Shown here: one piece after another, positions 15,345 through 20,972 of the stretch
Numbering within the stretch: the first letter of the stretch is position 1
Layout: every line of letters begins with the position of its first letter
Source of the DNA: an uncultured Actinomycetes bacterium
Lineage (GTDB): Bacteria > Actinomycetota > Acidimicrobiia > Acidimicrobiales > RAAP-2
Assembly: GCA_903825035.1 (NCBI GenBank)
Contig: CAIJYV010000018.1
Location: forward strand, 1 to 36,421
DNA length: 36,421 bases
Direction: 5' to 3'
Notes under the pieces: model-generated
What the model was told of the DNA's origin: nothing
What the model saw: only the letters and a program-made list of their open reading frames with translations
Database searches by the model: none
Translations under genes and position numbers: made by a program

Positions 15345-16077
15345 CGGCTGCAAAAATTTGCCAAGCCAGAACTGATTTGGCAATGAAGCTCAACCAAATG
15401 TAGAGGCGTTCTCCCGCCAGGTAGTCCTTAAACCGGCCAACTTGCTTGTACTGAAGCCACTGCACCAGCGCGAAGCAGTTGAACAGAGCAAAGATTGAGA
15501 AGTAGATCCCATAGACAAATCCAGGGGCGTGTTGACTTGCACCTGGAGAAAACAAATAAAGACCCAAGGCAATCCACGGGAACGCCCCAGCCACGCAGCC
15601 AAGCCAGAAGGGTTGCATTGAGCCACCGGGCTTTCCGTAGCGCTCTTGCATCCAACCAAAACCAATCATTGAGGCATTTACGCCGACTAATCCCAGCAGA
15701 GCAGCGATGTCACCAACACCAGTGATCTGGGCGATCGCAAAAATCATGATTGATGAGGAGATGGAGTATTCCAACCAGCGGTAGGGATTGCGGTTCTTGG
15801 CGAGATTGTCTAGGTACGACTGTTGCCGAGGGAAAGCCACCGTGAAGTGGGCAAGCGAAGAGAGCAAGAAGAAGATTCCAATGAGCAGCGCGGTCGATAC
15901 CGACCCGTAGGAAACCATTTGGAATTTTCCAGATCCGGGCTGGCCGGCCATGTATCGAGCAAAAACTGGAAGAGCAAAATTGTTCGCCAGGGCAAAAATC
16001 GCAATGGCGGAACCCAGATGCAACACACCGGCGATGGTGTTTAACTTTCGGAGTTGCTTAATTTGTTCGGTAAGCAT
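15316..16077 (-). CDS. Heliorhodopsin
   Basis: Heliorhodopsins are retinal-binding seven-helix photoreceptors, distantly related to type 1 rhodopsins and inserted with the N-terminus inside. The 253-residue protein matches the family along its length. Helix 1 contains AGVLHLGSA (H20). Helix 3 contains RWLEYSISSSIM, with E103 as the expected Schiff-base counterion. Next comes GVNASMIGFGWMQERY, then PGFVYGIYFSIF, and helix 7 contains SFIAKSVLAWQIF, with K234 as the retinal-binding lysine. H77 corresponds to the second conserved histidine. All key residues are present, so it should bind retinal. No retinal or carotenoid synthesis gene is in the window. Known members do not pump ions strongly and their role is unsettled. 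Confidence 0.95.
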   Translation of the reverse strand: MLTEQIKQLRKLNTIAGVLHLGSAIAIFALANNFALPVFARYMAGQPGSGKFQMVSYGSVSTALLIGIFFLLSSLAHFTVAFPRQQSYLDNLAKNRNPYRWLEYSISSSIMIFAIAQITGVGDIAALLGLVGVNASMIGFGWMQERYGKPGGSMQPFWLGCVAGAFPWIALGLYLFSPGASQHAPGFVYGIYFSIFALFNCFALVQWLQYKQVGRFKDYLAGERLYIWLSFIAKSVLAWQIFAAVLGAQAAPH

Positions 16078-16099
16078 CGAGCCCTACTTTCATCTGCGA

Positions 16100-16115
16100 C
16101 ACTAAATCGCTAGTG
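16100..16115. repeat. Short inverted repeat upstream of the heliorhodopsin gene
   Basis: CACTA (16100-16104) and TAGTG (16111-16115) flank a 6-nt centre, 23 nt before the heliorhodopsin ATG. It could be an operator or lie in the leader. The 92-nt gap 16078-16169 holds nothing else clear except a TAGATT hexamer on the minus strand near 16124-16129. Confidence 0.35.
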
Positions 16116-16169
16116 AATTCAATCTAACCGAGACAAACCGTAAGCATTGGGCAATTCCTAGTTGGGTGT

Positions 16170-17264
16170 TTACCAACCAGCGAGTTGTTCGAAGAGGCTC
16201 ACCATCTGTTGTAGCGAGAATTGCATCGAGGCTCGGCCAACTTGGTATTCATATCGCTGCAGATTTGTGCTCTCACTGAGAAAGATGCCCGGCAGAGTCA
16301 TAATCTTCTGCTCGGAGGCAATTTTGCGCACACGAGCTTCCATTTCTTCTTTGGTGGCGGAAAACCGCAGGTGCATCATCGGGCTGCGAACCTCATCGGG
16401 CAACACCTCTATTCCTTCGATGGTGCGGAGTTTCTTTGAGAGCGCGACCGCCCGACGGTAGTAAGGCCCCATATCTTTGGGGCGAGTTTTCACAACCTGC
16501 AATGCCGATGCGGCATAGGGCCAGAGCATGTAGGCACGTCCACCATGGCGAGTGCGCCACAGAGAAACCTCGTCAATAATGTCGGACTTTCCCGCTACAC
16601 AACTTCCCGTTATGCCGCCAAGACCCTTGTAGAACGAAACGTACACGGTATCGAAGAGAGCGCAGATGTCCTTGATGGATTTCTTCGCGGTGGTGGCATA
16701 ATAGGGAGCCGCTTCCCAGAGTCGCGCACCATCAAGATGCAGTGCCACCCCCTTTTTCCTTGCCCACTTTGCTTGCGCCACGAGCTCATTCCAAGTCGGC
16801 AAATACCCGCCCATGTCACGCTGAGGGAGCTCCAAGAGTAGAGCCCCCACTGGCTCTTTGATTTCGTTTAGCGAGTCCAGCGTTATGGGTCCTTGAGGTC
16901 CACCCGAATTGGCTATCACTTCTTGCAAACCATGCAGACGAGCAAAAGCATGTTCCTCGTGAGTTCTAAGGTGCGTCATCTGGTGAAAGGCAACCCGTGG
17001 GTTTCGGGCGTGATCGCATAGGACGCGCAATGTTGCCTGCTGCGTCATTATTCCTGTCGGCATAAACAGCGCCTTTTCTTTACCTAGCAGCGAGGCGACG
17101 AATTCCTCGAGTTCGGTAACAACGCCACCAACACCGTATACATCCATTTTCGTATCGGTCGCGATTTGAGCCAAGAGTGAATCTGCGGTGCGAGGCCCAT
17201 CACCAGCCAGAAACCGAGTGCATTGTGTAACAAGAGTGCTTAACGGGGGGAGGGACTTAGCCAT
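16170..17264 (-). CDS. Threonine aldolase / beta-eliminating lyase family, PLP-dependent
   Basis: These fold-type I PLP enzymes cleave L-threonine or L-allo-threonine to glycine and acetaldehyde. The 364-residue protein shows DVYGVGGVVTELEEFVASLLG at the start of the large domain (seen as YGVGGVVTELEE). It also shows HLDGARLWEA, whose Asp178 contacts the pyridine nitrogen, and SFYKGLGGITG with the PLP lysine K213. It is slightly longer than the usual 335-350 residues owing to an N-terminal extension rich in basic and Ser/Thr residues. There is no ribosome-binding site. TAAACT ends 6 nt before the ATG, so the mRNA is probably leaderless. Substrate preference within the family cannot be read from sequence. 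Confidence 0.9.
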   Translation of the reverse strand: MAKSLPPLSTLVTQCTRFLAGDGPRTADSLLAQIATDTKMDVYGVGGVVTELEEFVASLLGKEKALFMPTGIMTQQATLRVLCDHARNPRVAFHQMTHLRTHEEHAFARLHGLQEVIANSGGPQGPITLDSLNEIKEPVGALLLELPQRDMGGYLPTWNELVAQAKWARKKGVALHLDGARLWEAAPYYATTAKKSIKDICALFDTVYVSFYKGLGGITGSCVAGKSDIIDEVSLWRTRHGGRAYMLWPYAASALQVVKTRPKDMGPYYRRAVALSKKLRTIEGIEVLPDEVRSPMMHLRFSATKEEMEARVRKIASEQKIMTLPGIFLSESTNLQRYEYQVGRASMQFSLQQMVSLFEQLAGW

Positions 17265-17270
17265 GGGGTG

Positions 17271-17276
17271 AGTTTA
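17271..17276 (-). promoter_or_regulatory. -10 element giving a leaderless threonine aldolase mRNA
   Basis: TAAACT on the minus strand is followed by six bases (CACCCC) and then the ATG, so the first transcribed base is expected to be the A of the start codon. Confidence 0.55.
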
Positions 17277-17287
17277 CGACGCCAACC

Positions 17288-17297
17288 TCGAATTCGA
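17288..17297. repeat. 10-bp palindrome shared by two divergent promoters
   Basis: TCGAATTCGA is a perfect palindrome in the 57-nt gap between the threonine aldolase gene and the exported repeat protein. It lies at about the -35 position of both predicted promoters, so a bound regulator could affect both. Confidence 0.4.
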
Positions 17298-17309
17298 ATG
17301 GTGGGCACC

Positions 17310-17315
17310 TAGTAT
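17310..17315 (+). promoter_or_regulatory. -10 element giving a leaderless mRNA for the exported repeat protein
   Basis: TAGTAT is followed by six bases (TTTGCT) and then the GTG start at 17322. There is no Shine-Dalgarno sequence. Confidence 0.55.
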
Positions 17316-17321
17316 TTTGCT

Positions 17322-18314
17322 GTGAAGCCAAACTTTAAGACGCCACTTTTTCTTGCAACATGTTTTCTCTCAGTCCTGATCATTGCTTCAGCCGCTGTGA
17401 TTACGAGCAATTCACCATCTCACACAAGCTGCACCATTAATAATGGGCTGAGTATTTGTAGCGACGGAACAAAGACATCGGCGCCGGGCAGTACTCAGGT
17501 ACGCGCGCTTTCAACTTCGGTGGCGAAATTAAGCGCCTCCCTCAGTGCGGTACAAACTGAAAACCAAACCATCGCTCGCAGGATTGTTGCGCTCACGCAA
17601 CAGGTCGAGAGGGCCGCATCCGCTTCGACTTTGGTTAACGATTTTCGCTTAGCACTGGCGGGATCTGCAACAGCCCATCAGGTAAGCACTCTGCGAGCAG
17701 CTATTGCCGCGTTAGCGACACCAAGTCAGATTCACAGCGATCTATTAAGTGTGATAGCGCACACAGCAACTGCAGATCAAGTAACGGCCATTCAAACCGC
17801 TTTGGCGACGACGGTCACCTCGTCGCAGGTTCAGTCGGATCTGGAAGCTGCACTGAGCGGTCTGGCGACCTCGGCACAAATTTCCACTTTGGAAACCGCT
17901 CTCAGCAATGCGGTTACTCCAAGCGATTTGACGAATGCCCTTAACTCAGCTCTCGCGGGAACCGCATCCGCTGCACAGGTTTCAACGGTTCAGACCACCT
18001 TGGGCACACTTGCTACAGCGGCTAATTTGGCCACTTTGCAGACGACCGCCACCGCCCTTCAAGCTTCAGTCAGCAACATTTCGTCGCAGCTCACGACATT
18101 GCAAGCTGCGGTGACCACCGCAATCACTACGCTCGGAACTACCTTGAGGGGCACTAATAGCGCAGTCACCTTGACAGCCATCTATAGCGAACTGCTTTCA
18201 GTGAGCACGTCCATAGCTAGTTTGGCTCAAGCAAATCAGGTAACGACTGCGCAAACCACCCTCAACAGCATTCTGGCCACGGTGCAAGCAATCCAGACGG
18301 CAGTCTCTCCCTAA
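17322..18314 (+). CDS. Exported or membrane-anchored repeat protein of unknown function
   Basis: I do not recognise this 330-residue protein. It starts at GTG with a basic N-terminus (MKPNFKTPLF) and a hydrophobic segment at about residues 8-28, a signal peptide or anchor. Two cysteines follow (C37, C46), then a helical region. Residues about 98-247 are about nine tandem repeats of 16-17 residues with the pattern xATxxQVxxLxxALxx, for example TADQVTAIQTALAT and TSAQISTLETALSN. The remainder is Ala/Thr/Ser/Leu-rich and probably coiled coil. Aromatic residues are almost absent. The repeats recall the helical ATKADLxxL repeats of some structural proteins, but no homology can be claimed. It is single and likely leaderless, next to tRNA-Leu. 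Confidence 0.75.
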   Translation: MKPNFKTPLFLATCFLSVLIIASAAVITSNSPSHTSCTINNGLSICSDGTKTSAPGSTQVRALSTSVAKLSASLSAVQTENQTIARRIVALTQQVERAASASTLVNDFRLALAGSATAHQVSTLRAAIAALATPSQIHSDLLSVIAHTATADQVTAIQTALATTVTSSQVQSDLEAALSGLATSAQISTLETALSNAVTPSDLTNALNSALAGTASAAQVSTVQTTLGTLATAANLATLQTTATALQASVSNISSQLTTLQAAVTTAITTLGTTLRGTNSAVTLTAIYSELLSVSTSIASLAQANQVTTAQTTLNSILATVQAIQTAVSP

Positions 18315-18331
18315 TAAGAGAGCGCTGGCAG

Positions 18332-18414
18332 TGGGCGAGGCGGGACTTGAACCCGCACATCCTTTCGAATACCAGCACCTGAAGCTGGCGTGTCTGCCAT
18401 TTCACCACTCGCCC
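18332..18414 (-). tRNA. tRNA-Leu (anticodon CAG)
   Basis: The minus strand folds as a class II tRNA of 83 nt. It has an acceptor GGGCGAG/CTCGCCC, anticodon stem CCAGC/GCTGG around loop TTCAGGT (anticodon CAG), a long variable arm (ATTC GAAA GGAT) as in Leu tRNAs, and a T-arm CGGG TTCAAGT CCCG. The discriminator base is A. The 3' CCA is not encoded. A -10-like TATTCT lies 10 nt upstream. Confidence 0.93.
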
Positions 18415-18424
18415 ATCGACTTAA

Positions 18425-18430
18425 AGAATA
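18425..18430 (-). promoter_or_regulatory. Candidate -10 element of tRNA-Leu
   Basis: TATTCT on the minus strand ends 10 nt before the mature 5' end. A weak ATATTT lies 17 nt further upstream. The rest of 18415-18559 holds only the start region of the next gene. Confidence 0.4.
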
Positions 18431-18559
18431 TCTCAAAGCTAGTTGTGAAATATCAGGAGAGTAGAACAGAAATAATTAAGGCCTTCTTAAACAGTAGGTC
18501 TCCAAGTATCAATTGAGGCGGCCAGAGCGTCACTTAGCGTTTTGTTGGTAGGTTATAGT

Positions 18560-19612
18560 ATGTATACGTATCATTTGATAAAGCAAACAAAAGTCACTCT
18601 TGTAACAACTTGTTTGTTGGGCTTAGCAATGCTGCCTCTTCCAATGTTTGTAACCGGCGAGAAGTTTCATTCGGTAATTGGAAAATTTTCAAGTTTTAAC
18701 GCAGCAGATTCCGCTGCGAACCTTGGTGTGACGGAGCAAGTGAATGGCGTTACGAGTCCAATTTCTGGCGGAGGAACCGAAACCTCATTTTCTCTTCCAA
18801 ATGTCGGTGTACTGAGTACACCAACGCCACCGATTGGATTCAATCCCCTTACAGCTTCCGACGGCGAACTTCGGGCATATGACTTTCCGGCGCGCCCAAG
18901 TAACCTCATCGACCTTCTGAATTGGAATGCGGCCATGGGCTCGTTCAAGGCGGATAGTGCCCCTTCACAAATTCTGAATTAAAGTGCGCAGACCACAAGT
19001 AAATTCAACGTTTATTACGGAAACTGGTCTGGCTTTACGGCCGGAACGGTTGGAACAACTGGAAACAGATACGTGGCGGTCAAAGCTGACGTAGTTGTTC
19101 CTTCTCACCCTGGTACCTGTTCAACAAATAATGGCATTGGCATTTGGGTTGGTCTTGGGGGAGCGTCGTCGAGTAGGGGTGATCTTGCCCAACAAGGTAT
19201 CGAGTGCGGAGCGCCTCTGGGTACCGGAGACGTGGTTTACCAGAACATGAGTGCCGAACAGAGCCTTAACCGAGTCAACTTCTTCCTTGAAGACATTACG
19301 ACTGGCGCTGCACACTCTTGCCATGTTGACAATGCACCAGGCTGGAATTTCAATGGTGATACGGCCGACTATGTAGTCGAAGCGGTTAATTTCAATGGTG
19401 GCAGCCCGACCCCGTTAGCCTTTGGGAATATCAATTTTTCCAACAGTAGTGCCCAACTGAACTCTACTGGTCTCTGGGCCGACTTTGGCTCGCAGCCTAC
19501 AGATAAATTTTTCCAAGGTTCTAGCCCGAGTGTATTCTGCTTCGGCCCAAGCACGATCGGGCCAGACAAACTGACATTCAATGTTGCGTGGCATTCTGCG
19601 ACGTGTAAGTAG
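18560..19612 (+). pseudogene. G1-family glutamic peptidase homologue interrupted by an in-frame TAA
   Basis: The frame from ATG 18560 (GGTAGG about 8 nt upstream) encodes a signal peptide (TLVTTCLLGLAMLPLPMF) and a propeptide with PIGFNPLTASDGELRAYDFP, a pattern seen before bacterial G1 peptidases. It ends at TAA 18980-18982. Without any shift, the same frame then continues KFNVYYGNWSGF, GIGIWVGLGG, DLAQQGIECG, DTADYVVEAVNF and NINFSNSSA to a TAG at 19610-19612. These match the eqolisin-like beta-sandwich, with the catalytic Gln in AQQG (19190-19195) and Glu in VVEA (19379-19381). The second half has no start of its own; GTG 19073 lies inside the fold. Secreted peptidase, therefore, but broken by one nonsense codon, or read through. 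Confidence 0.75.
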
Positions 19613-19614
19613 CC

Positions 19615-20181
19615 ATGATGGCGATTCTGAAAGTATGGGGTGTATTGATGAGGCGTTTATCCTTGCTGCTCTCTATCGGCATGTGTGCCGTGTTCCTTCT
19701 TCAAGCAATTGAGGTCTCTGCCGATGGCTCAACTCTAAAGTCAAAAGTAAAGTCTGAAAGCTATGCATTCACTGGATCTGCGTGTTCGATCCAGTCACTA
19801 AAAATTGAGAGCATCGAATCACCAGTTGTGTTCCCAGCTGCATTTCTTCGGGAGCAAATTCTAGAGTTCACAATTGCGACGATTAATGGAGGCTGCACCT
19901 ACTCTAAAATCGAGAATTTTTCAGTTGGAATCCGCATCGCGGGAGAAATGCACAGAGTTTCGAAGCAGGTTTCTATGAGCAATGGCAATAATCAAGGCAA
20001 TAATTTGAAACTTGATTTCTATATAGTCTCACTCGAAAACCAGCAGAAATCTTGTAAGCCAGCCTACATTTCGAAAGCAGAACTGGGGATTGGGAGGCAG
20101 AAATTTAGGAGCCAATTTAAAGCGCGTTCGCTCTACTTTTGTGGTGTTAAAAACACCGGTTTAATAGTACAACGAAGTTGA
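19615..20181 (+). CDS. Small secreted cysteine-containing protein, unknown
   Basis: I do not recognise this protein of up to 188 residues. The ATG at 19615 comes 2 nt after the stop of the G1 peptidase homologue; a second ATG at 19648 would give a cleaner signal peptide (MRRLSLLLSIGMCAVFLLQA). The mature part has four cysteines (in SACSIQ, NGGCTY, QKSCKPA and LYFCGV), which could form two disulfides. The alternating pattern suggests beta strands, as in IRIAGEMHRVSK and KLDFYIVSLEN. Its tight spacing to the peptidase homologue suggests shared transcription, so it could be an inhibitor, partner or unrelated surface protein. Base composition looks more AT-rich than the neighbours. Confidence 0.65.
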   Translation: MMAILKVWGVLMRRLSLLLSIGMCAVFLLQAIEVSADGSTLKSKVKSESYAFTGSACSIQSLKIESIESPVVFPAAFLREQILEFTIATINGGCTYSKIENFSVGIRIAGEMHRVSKQVSMSNGNNQGNNLKLDFYIVSLENQQKSCKPAYISKAELGIGRQKFRSQFKARSLYFCGVKNTGLIVQRS

Positions 20182-20228
20182 ACTTTTAGCTGGCGGCCGT
20201 CAGAATGAAGTAGTGCGAGGTTCCAGTG

Positions 20229-20245
20229 TTGTGTCAACTACACAA
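20229..20245. repeat. Inverted repeat upstream of fhaA
   Basis: TTGTGT (20229-20234) and ACACAA (20240-20245) flank CAACT, in the 143-nt gap before fhaA. It may be an operator or a small hairpin. No convincing -35/-10 pair is seen in this gap. Confidence 0.35.
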
Positions 20246-20324
20246 AGGTACCAATTCGGTTTCTGAGGTACAGATAAATAAGACTAAGGGCGATGGGAAC
20301 CGATTCCGGTAAGGTTGGATAGTC

Positions 20325-20972
20325 ATGGTTCTAAAAAATGTAGAAAACCGCCTAGAGCGATTGTTTTCCAAGCCCTTCTCGAAGACCTTCAAGTCGGGCT
20401 TGCAGCCAGTCGAAATTGCTTCGCGCATCCTGCGCGAGATCGACCTGACGCGCCGACTCAGCGGGCAAGGTCCAGTTTCGGCGAATGCCGTCCGAGTCTG
20501 GCTAGGGCCAGAAGACGCCGAACGATTTGATGGCTTCCAGCAACCACTCATTCAAGAGCTAGAAGAAGCGGTGCGCCAGCACGCAGTTTCGGAAGGGTAC
20601 AGCTTCGCTGGACCAGTCAAGGTCGAAATTTTCCTCAACGATGACCTTTCATTAGGTGACGTCGAAATCGCGGTCCGCTTTGTTGGCGGTGCTGCCCAGC
20701 CCAAGTTCATCTGTTCGGACGGACGCTCTTTCCCAGTCGGCGATCAGCCACTGATTATCGGTCGTAGTCCTGATGTGGACGTAACTATCAACGACTCCAA
20801 TGTTTCTCGACGTCACGCTGAAGTATGGCGCACCCCAGAGGGGGTGGCGATTCGCGACCTGGGCTCAACTAACGGAACTATTGTTAATGGTCACGTAATT
20901 GACGCGGTGTCGCTCTCACCTCGTGACGAAGTCTCGATTGGAAATGTTCGATTCAGAATTGAAATGGCCTAA
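20325..20972 (+). CDS. fhaA: FhaA-like protein (DUF3662 plus FHA domain)
   Basis: FhaA proteins read Ser/Thr phosphorylation and in mycobacteria bind the pseudokinase MviN to control peptidoglycan precursor flipping. Residues 1-120 match DUF3662 (start MVLKNVENRLERLFSKPFSK), and residues 142-215 are an FHA domain with IIGRSPDVDVTINDSNVSRR, HAEV and DLGSTNGTIVNG, which supply the phosphothreonine-binding Arg, Ser and Asn. At 215 residues it lacks the long disordered middle of mycobacterial FhaA (about 527 residues). AAGG lies 10 nt before the ATG. The stop overlaps the fhaB ATG (TAATG). Confidence 0.92.
   Translation: MVLKNVENRLERLFSKPFSKTFKSGLQPVEIASRILREIDLTRRLSGQGPVSANAVRVWLGPEDAERFDGFQQPLIQELEEAVRQHAVSEGYSFAGPVKVEIFLNDDLSLGDVEIAVRFVGGAAQPKFICSDGRSFPVGDQPLIIGRSPDVDVTINDSNVSRRHAEVWRTPEGVAIRDLGSTNGTIVNGHVIDAVSLSPRDEVSIGNVRFRIEMA

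Follow-up and report, generated by a model that had tools for sequence, protein, structure and literature searches.

The analysed DNA, a stretch of 36,421 nucleotides from an uncultured Actinomycetes bacterium (hereafter the window), carries a reading frame at 18560-19612 that encodes a secreted peptidase-like protein in two parts, flanked by a tRNA-Leu gene and by a gene that we take, from its sequence, to be an FHA gene (Table 1). A single TAA is the sole internal stop of this frame, which is open on both sides, just as the preliminary description of this DNA had it. The first half, 140 residues long, opens with hydrophobic residues resembling a signal peptide and carries a propeptide motif, PPIGFNPLTASDGELRAYDFPARP. 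The proposal that signal peptide and propeptide end at the TAA therefore stands for the propeptide half, which runs to 18979, while the signal peptide is a judgement by eye. The second half shows no plausible start of its own, again as first described: the earliest ATG, GTG or TTG past the stop is the GTG at 19073, which lies 30 codons in and comes after the NWSG strand, the first strand of the domain.

Table 1. Features in and around the interrupted peptidase frame, with positions in the window.
Feature	Position	Strand	Basis
tRNA-Leu (anticodon cag), bordering the extra stretch on the left	18331..18414	-	tRNA call
Extra 1.9 kb from tRNA-Leu(CAG) to the FHA gene, with the broken peptidase gene and a small ORF	18415..20324		Locus comparison
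First half, 140 aa: signal-peptide-like N-terminus (by eye) and propeptide with motif PPIGFNPLTASDGELRAYDFPARP	18560..18979	+	Translation, order-wide matches
In-frame TAA stop	18980..18982	+	Sequence
G1 (Peptidase_A4) domain remnant, 209 aa, without a start codon ahead of the domain	18983..19609	+	PF01828 match, homologue alignment
Junction lacking ~32 profile positions, the AWYE strand with the 70's loop; second-half residues 78-81	19214..19225	+	Profile
TAG closing the peptidase frame	19610..19612	+	Sequence
Small secreted-looking ORF, starting 2 nt past the final stop of the peptidase frame	19615..20181	+	ORF, Pfam scan
FHA gene (presumed), right border of the extra stretch	20325..20972	+	Genus-wide matches

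The second half belongs to MEROPS family G1, the eqolisins, which include scytalidoglutamic peptidase (SGP, also scytalidopepsin B), aspergilloglutamic peptidase (AGP, also aspergillopepsin II) and bacterial pepG1, and which are marked by an acid optimum and by activity that pepstatin does not inhibit. It matches the Pfam model Peptidase_A4 (PF01828) with E 1.4e-9 and 38.2 bits, above the curated cut-off of 22.3, and it keeps the NWSG and WVG.GG motifs of the family as well as the catalytic Gln and Glu columns that are invariant in the aligned homologues; the N-terminal propeptide in the first half also resembles that of the homologues found in this analysis. A wider profile matched AGP (E 1.4e-28) and SGP (E 7.9e-27) in the PDB. 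Counting residues by hand along this alignment, we equate the window Gln with SGP Q53 and the W-Y-E motif with W67-Y68-E69, and the alignment, together with PMC6154417, equates the window Glu with SGP E136. Published work describes the Gln/Glu dyad as strictly conserved across family G1 (PMC3009609), the AGP fold as two-sheet (PMC8147669), and Q53 as positioned by W67 and the strictly conserved E69, with a 70's loop that moves in when substrate binds (PMC6154417). A single-sequence PDB search returned one match at chance level, an NCBIfam scan of four proteins assigned no family, and AlphaFold models were poor, with a mean pLDDT of 41.0 for the window domain and 39.7 for an uninterrupted homologue used as a control (three sequences each).

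The claim that the catalytic domain continues in the same frame with both catalytic residues kept is thus sustained by the Peptidase_A4 match and the two catalytic columns. The further claim that the motifs after the stop are intact does not survive comparison over the whole domain, which lacks the W67/E69 strand and the 70's loop that should stand between the catalytic Gln and Glu. On a profile built from nine homologues the window domain splits into positions 2-65 and 98-223 (position 65 being second-half residue 78 and position 98 residue 81), with two residues between, and in the alignment with these nine sequences it is gapped where the others have the AWYE motif. The profile was then run against 772 open frames from the fetched loci, each 150 aa or longer, five loci of the window's own gene or of its FHA gene being left out; 84 matched at E 1e-8, and removal of duplicates and contained copies left 66 rows. 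The segment is covered by 64 of these rows, the remaining two not reaching it, and measures 23-40 residues in all 64 (including L084, which joins the profile only at position 70), as against 2 in the window; these counts come from a profile seeded with segment-bearing sequences, which may favour segment-bearing rows. The Glu column holds E in 60 of the 64, and W or F stands two places ahead of it in 62. Loss of the segment leaves the reading frame intact. Given two lesions, one of them the missing W67/E69 strand and 70's loop, reading through the stop would not be expected to yield a normal peptidase, and the window domain, even if translated, would probably not function as one. The case serves as a caution that catalytic residues conserved past a stop do not prove a domain intact.

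Relatives indicate that the two halves were once a single gene. When the first half was compared with 298 genomes of the order, matches were found in 13 at E 1e-4 or better and in 20 at E 0.01 (own genome counted in both), the best outside the own genome having E 3.3e-16 with 42% identity over 79 residues. Several of these matches carry the same propeptide motif at the front of an open frame of 393-452 aa, and eight loci (L030, L031, L032, L033, L034, L035, L036 and L043) each consist of one open frame of this length in which a propeptide region is followed by the domain. Two relatives with an uninterrupted gene can be named, Actinomycetes bacterium DBS1-2.bin61 (L121, the same sequence as L030 of genome G165) and YP3.bin99 (L122). 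Both have propeptide and domain in the same order as the window, whose domain is 36% and 34% identical to theirs, but in each the gene is one open frame and the segment is present. Since relatives carry the counterparts of both halves within one uninterrupted frame, we are dealing with one split gene and not with two chance frames. Three first-half matches with internal stops, in G120, G185 and G060 (E 9e-4 to 2e-3), were dismissed as chance, no G1 domain being found in any frame of their loci.

These searches found no close sibling of the window peptidase gene. BLAST of the second half alone in 60 relatives gave no match, a single-protein scan of the genome contig collection with the second half found no relative, and there was no match in the plasmid collection. 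The read-through protein matched 8 of the 395 genomes of the class, own included; the only other genus member among them was G604, whose gene is uninterrupted and shows 27% identity across the matched part. The Pfam model detects G1 genes of more distant kinship in 12 of 36 other genomes of the genus. The own genome has another G1 domain within a 737-aa frame; this protein carries Ig-like N-terminal repeats, recognised by eye, and no visible propeptide of the window type.

The broken gene lies in DNA that most of the examined loci of the genus lack at this place. The FHA gene is found in 56 of 61 genus genomes at E 1e-59 or better (own included); a threshold of E 0.001 raises this to 60 of 61, the four added genomes matching only at ~1e-9. 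In 13 same-genus FHA loci, mostly taken from among the best matches, the distance from tRNA-Leu to the FHA gene is 74-89 nt in 11, as against 1910 nt in the window. The remaining two gave no tRNA call: in L109 the contig stops 127 nt past the gene, and in L118 it stops 759 nt past it. Both flanks were aligned for eight of the 13 loci, with a conserved tRNA on one side and a conserved FHA start on the other. We read the 1.9-kb stretch next to the tRNA gene as a lineage-specific insertion. A repeat search of 16000-20700 gave no direct repeat at the borders of the stretch, its one two-copy 20-mer lying in a neighbouring ORF, and promoter and terminator scans gave counts no higher than in shuffled sequences. 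The small ORF at 19615-20181 had no Pfam match over the cut-off and no tblastn match in the fetched loci. A small secreted or membrane-anchored ORF also follows the G1 gene in G332 (L090/L091) and in G604 (L107). On the other side of the tRNA gene, positions 17322-18314 encode a secreted-looking Ala/Thr-rich protein with coiled-coil-like repeats, which likewise had no Pfam match over the cut-off and no match among the fetched loci.

Our preferred account, which we hold to be probable, is that the window gene, which once encoded a secreted acid peptidase of G1 (eqolisin-like) type, is an accessory gene in decay, an ordinary pseudogene. In this lineage, a G1-type acid peptidase gene would have arrived in the interval from tRNA-Leu to the FHA gene, an in-frame deletion may have removed the active-site strand and the substrate loop, and a nonsense codon would then have arisen at the junction of propeptide and domain, although the two lesions may have occurred in the other order. 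What could still be translated is at most a secreted propeptide fragment of 140 residues, the domain past the stop being a presumably untranslated relic. A single translated secreted precursor would be expected of a family member, and the gene is uninterrupted in relatives, whereas the window gene is broken by the TAA. Relative to its homologues it carries more than one change, the stop and the missing segment, the latter probably disabling in itself. Because the catalytic domain is not intact, decay is likelier than readthrough, and a single nonsense change is not the whole story. Several observations nevertheless speak against decay. Past the TAA, the 209 codons of the second half hold no other stop and show no visible frameshift, as would be expected if constraint had been lost not long ago or were still present. 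That the missing segment leaves the frame unchanged may point to its loss at a time when translation of the gene still went on, and breaks are a minority in the family, with a stop inside the match in 2 of 126 listed survey rows. Of the single substitutions possible in the second half, ~3% would create a stop, and no such stop is present; at an expectation of three stops, fewer than ~97 neutral substitutions are likely to have occurred since constraint ended, so that the decay is probably not ancient.

Other explanations were weighed against decay. The TAA could be a base-calling or assembly error, the true gene then being one open frame for a secreted G1-like protein with a shortened and probably inactive domain. 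The genome is a draft of 37 contigs, the frame is open before and after the TAA, and one base would account for the stop. However, one wrong base neither explains nor restores the missing segment, which is a separate abnormality, and stops and frameshifts also occur in the G1 genes of a few other genomes; we regard an error as unlikely. Programmed or leaky readthrough, giving a little full-length protein, would suit two halves in the same frame of which the second is without a start. Yet TAA closes 10 of the 20 other window genes whose stops were read, one of them presumably gyrA, so that the codon has not been reassigned as a whole; the 100 nt of RNA after the stop are no more structured than chance (z -1.18); and the product would still be without the W67/E69 strand and the 70's loop. 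A readthrough gene would be expected to show a stop conserved at the same place, followed by constrained sequence. No homologue examined has a stop at the window position; in two G332 copies one lies ~28 residues further on. With TAA an ordinary stop in the window, no notable RNA structure and an incomplete domain, programmed readthrough was rejected, and readthrough of either kind appears extremely improbable.

Instead, the halves might work apart from each other, the first as a secreted propeptide by itself, for example one that inhibits peptidases in trans, and/or the second as a domain with its own start. The 140-residue first half is complete as far as the junction and holds the better conserved stretch, the one with the 42% match over 79 residues at E 3.3e-16, but no start codon stands ahead of the domain, and the own genome's other G1 protein, lacking a visible propeptide of this type, offers no obvious partner in the cell. 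We consider this very unlikely. Even less credence is given to a narrower form, in which the truncated gene persists because of what its first half encodes: released and secreted, this G1 propeptide would inhibit G1 peptidases of the cell or of its neighbours, the domain being a relic. The preliminary description had offered a very recent nonsense change, a sequencing error or readthrough. Our results agree with a decay that is probably not ancient; one change is not sufficient, and readthrough is unsupported. Comparison of the whole domain with its homologues has turned a possible case of readthrough into that of an ordinary decayed gene.

Broken G1 peptidase genes also turn up elsewhere in the order. 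PF01828 matches were found in 64 of the 298 genomes, and the two listed rows with a stop inside the match are the G332 copies on contigs C3 and C39, both with TAG. Further broken copies are one on C53 of G332, with frameshifts, and one on C5 of G257, split between frames, while G165 has a copy on C33 that is out of frame with its propeptide and a truncated copy on C68. This count is a lower bound, breaks upstream of the match having been looked for in only some rows, and most rows lie in open frames. Short frames in G051 (C37), G096 (C60) and G067 (C27) are cut by the contig end and were not counted as broken. G165 is a single genome that holds uninterrupted (L121/L030), truncated and frameshifted G1 genes (L049/L103 and L056/L087).

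The G332 copies on C3 and C39 (L090 and L091; also L041 and L054) are near-identical genes with a common in-frame TAG, 13 residues past the conserved domain-start Trp, and the frame is open after it. They resemble the window gene in having an in-frame stop near the domain start followed by an open domain frame, and differ from it in that the stop is TAG and lies ~28 residues further on, the W-E segment is present, and there are two near-identical copies. A third copy in G332 (L084, on C53) has no stop at the place of the TAG and is broken by frameshifts. Between the TAG and the final stop, L090 and L091 differ in 12 codons, nine silently and three with a change of residue, two of the latter adjoining the final stop. 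These differences were considered as a sign of translation past the stop and rejected as such, since they are clustered and the third copy agrees alternately with one copy and the other, a pattern that fits conversion between the copies.
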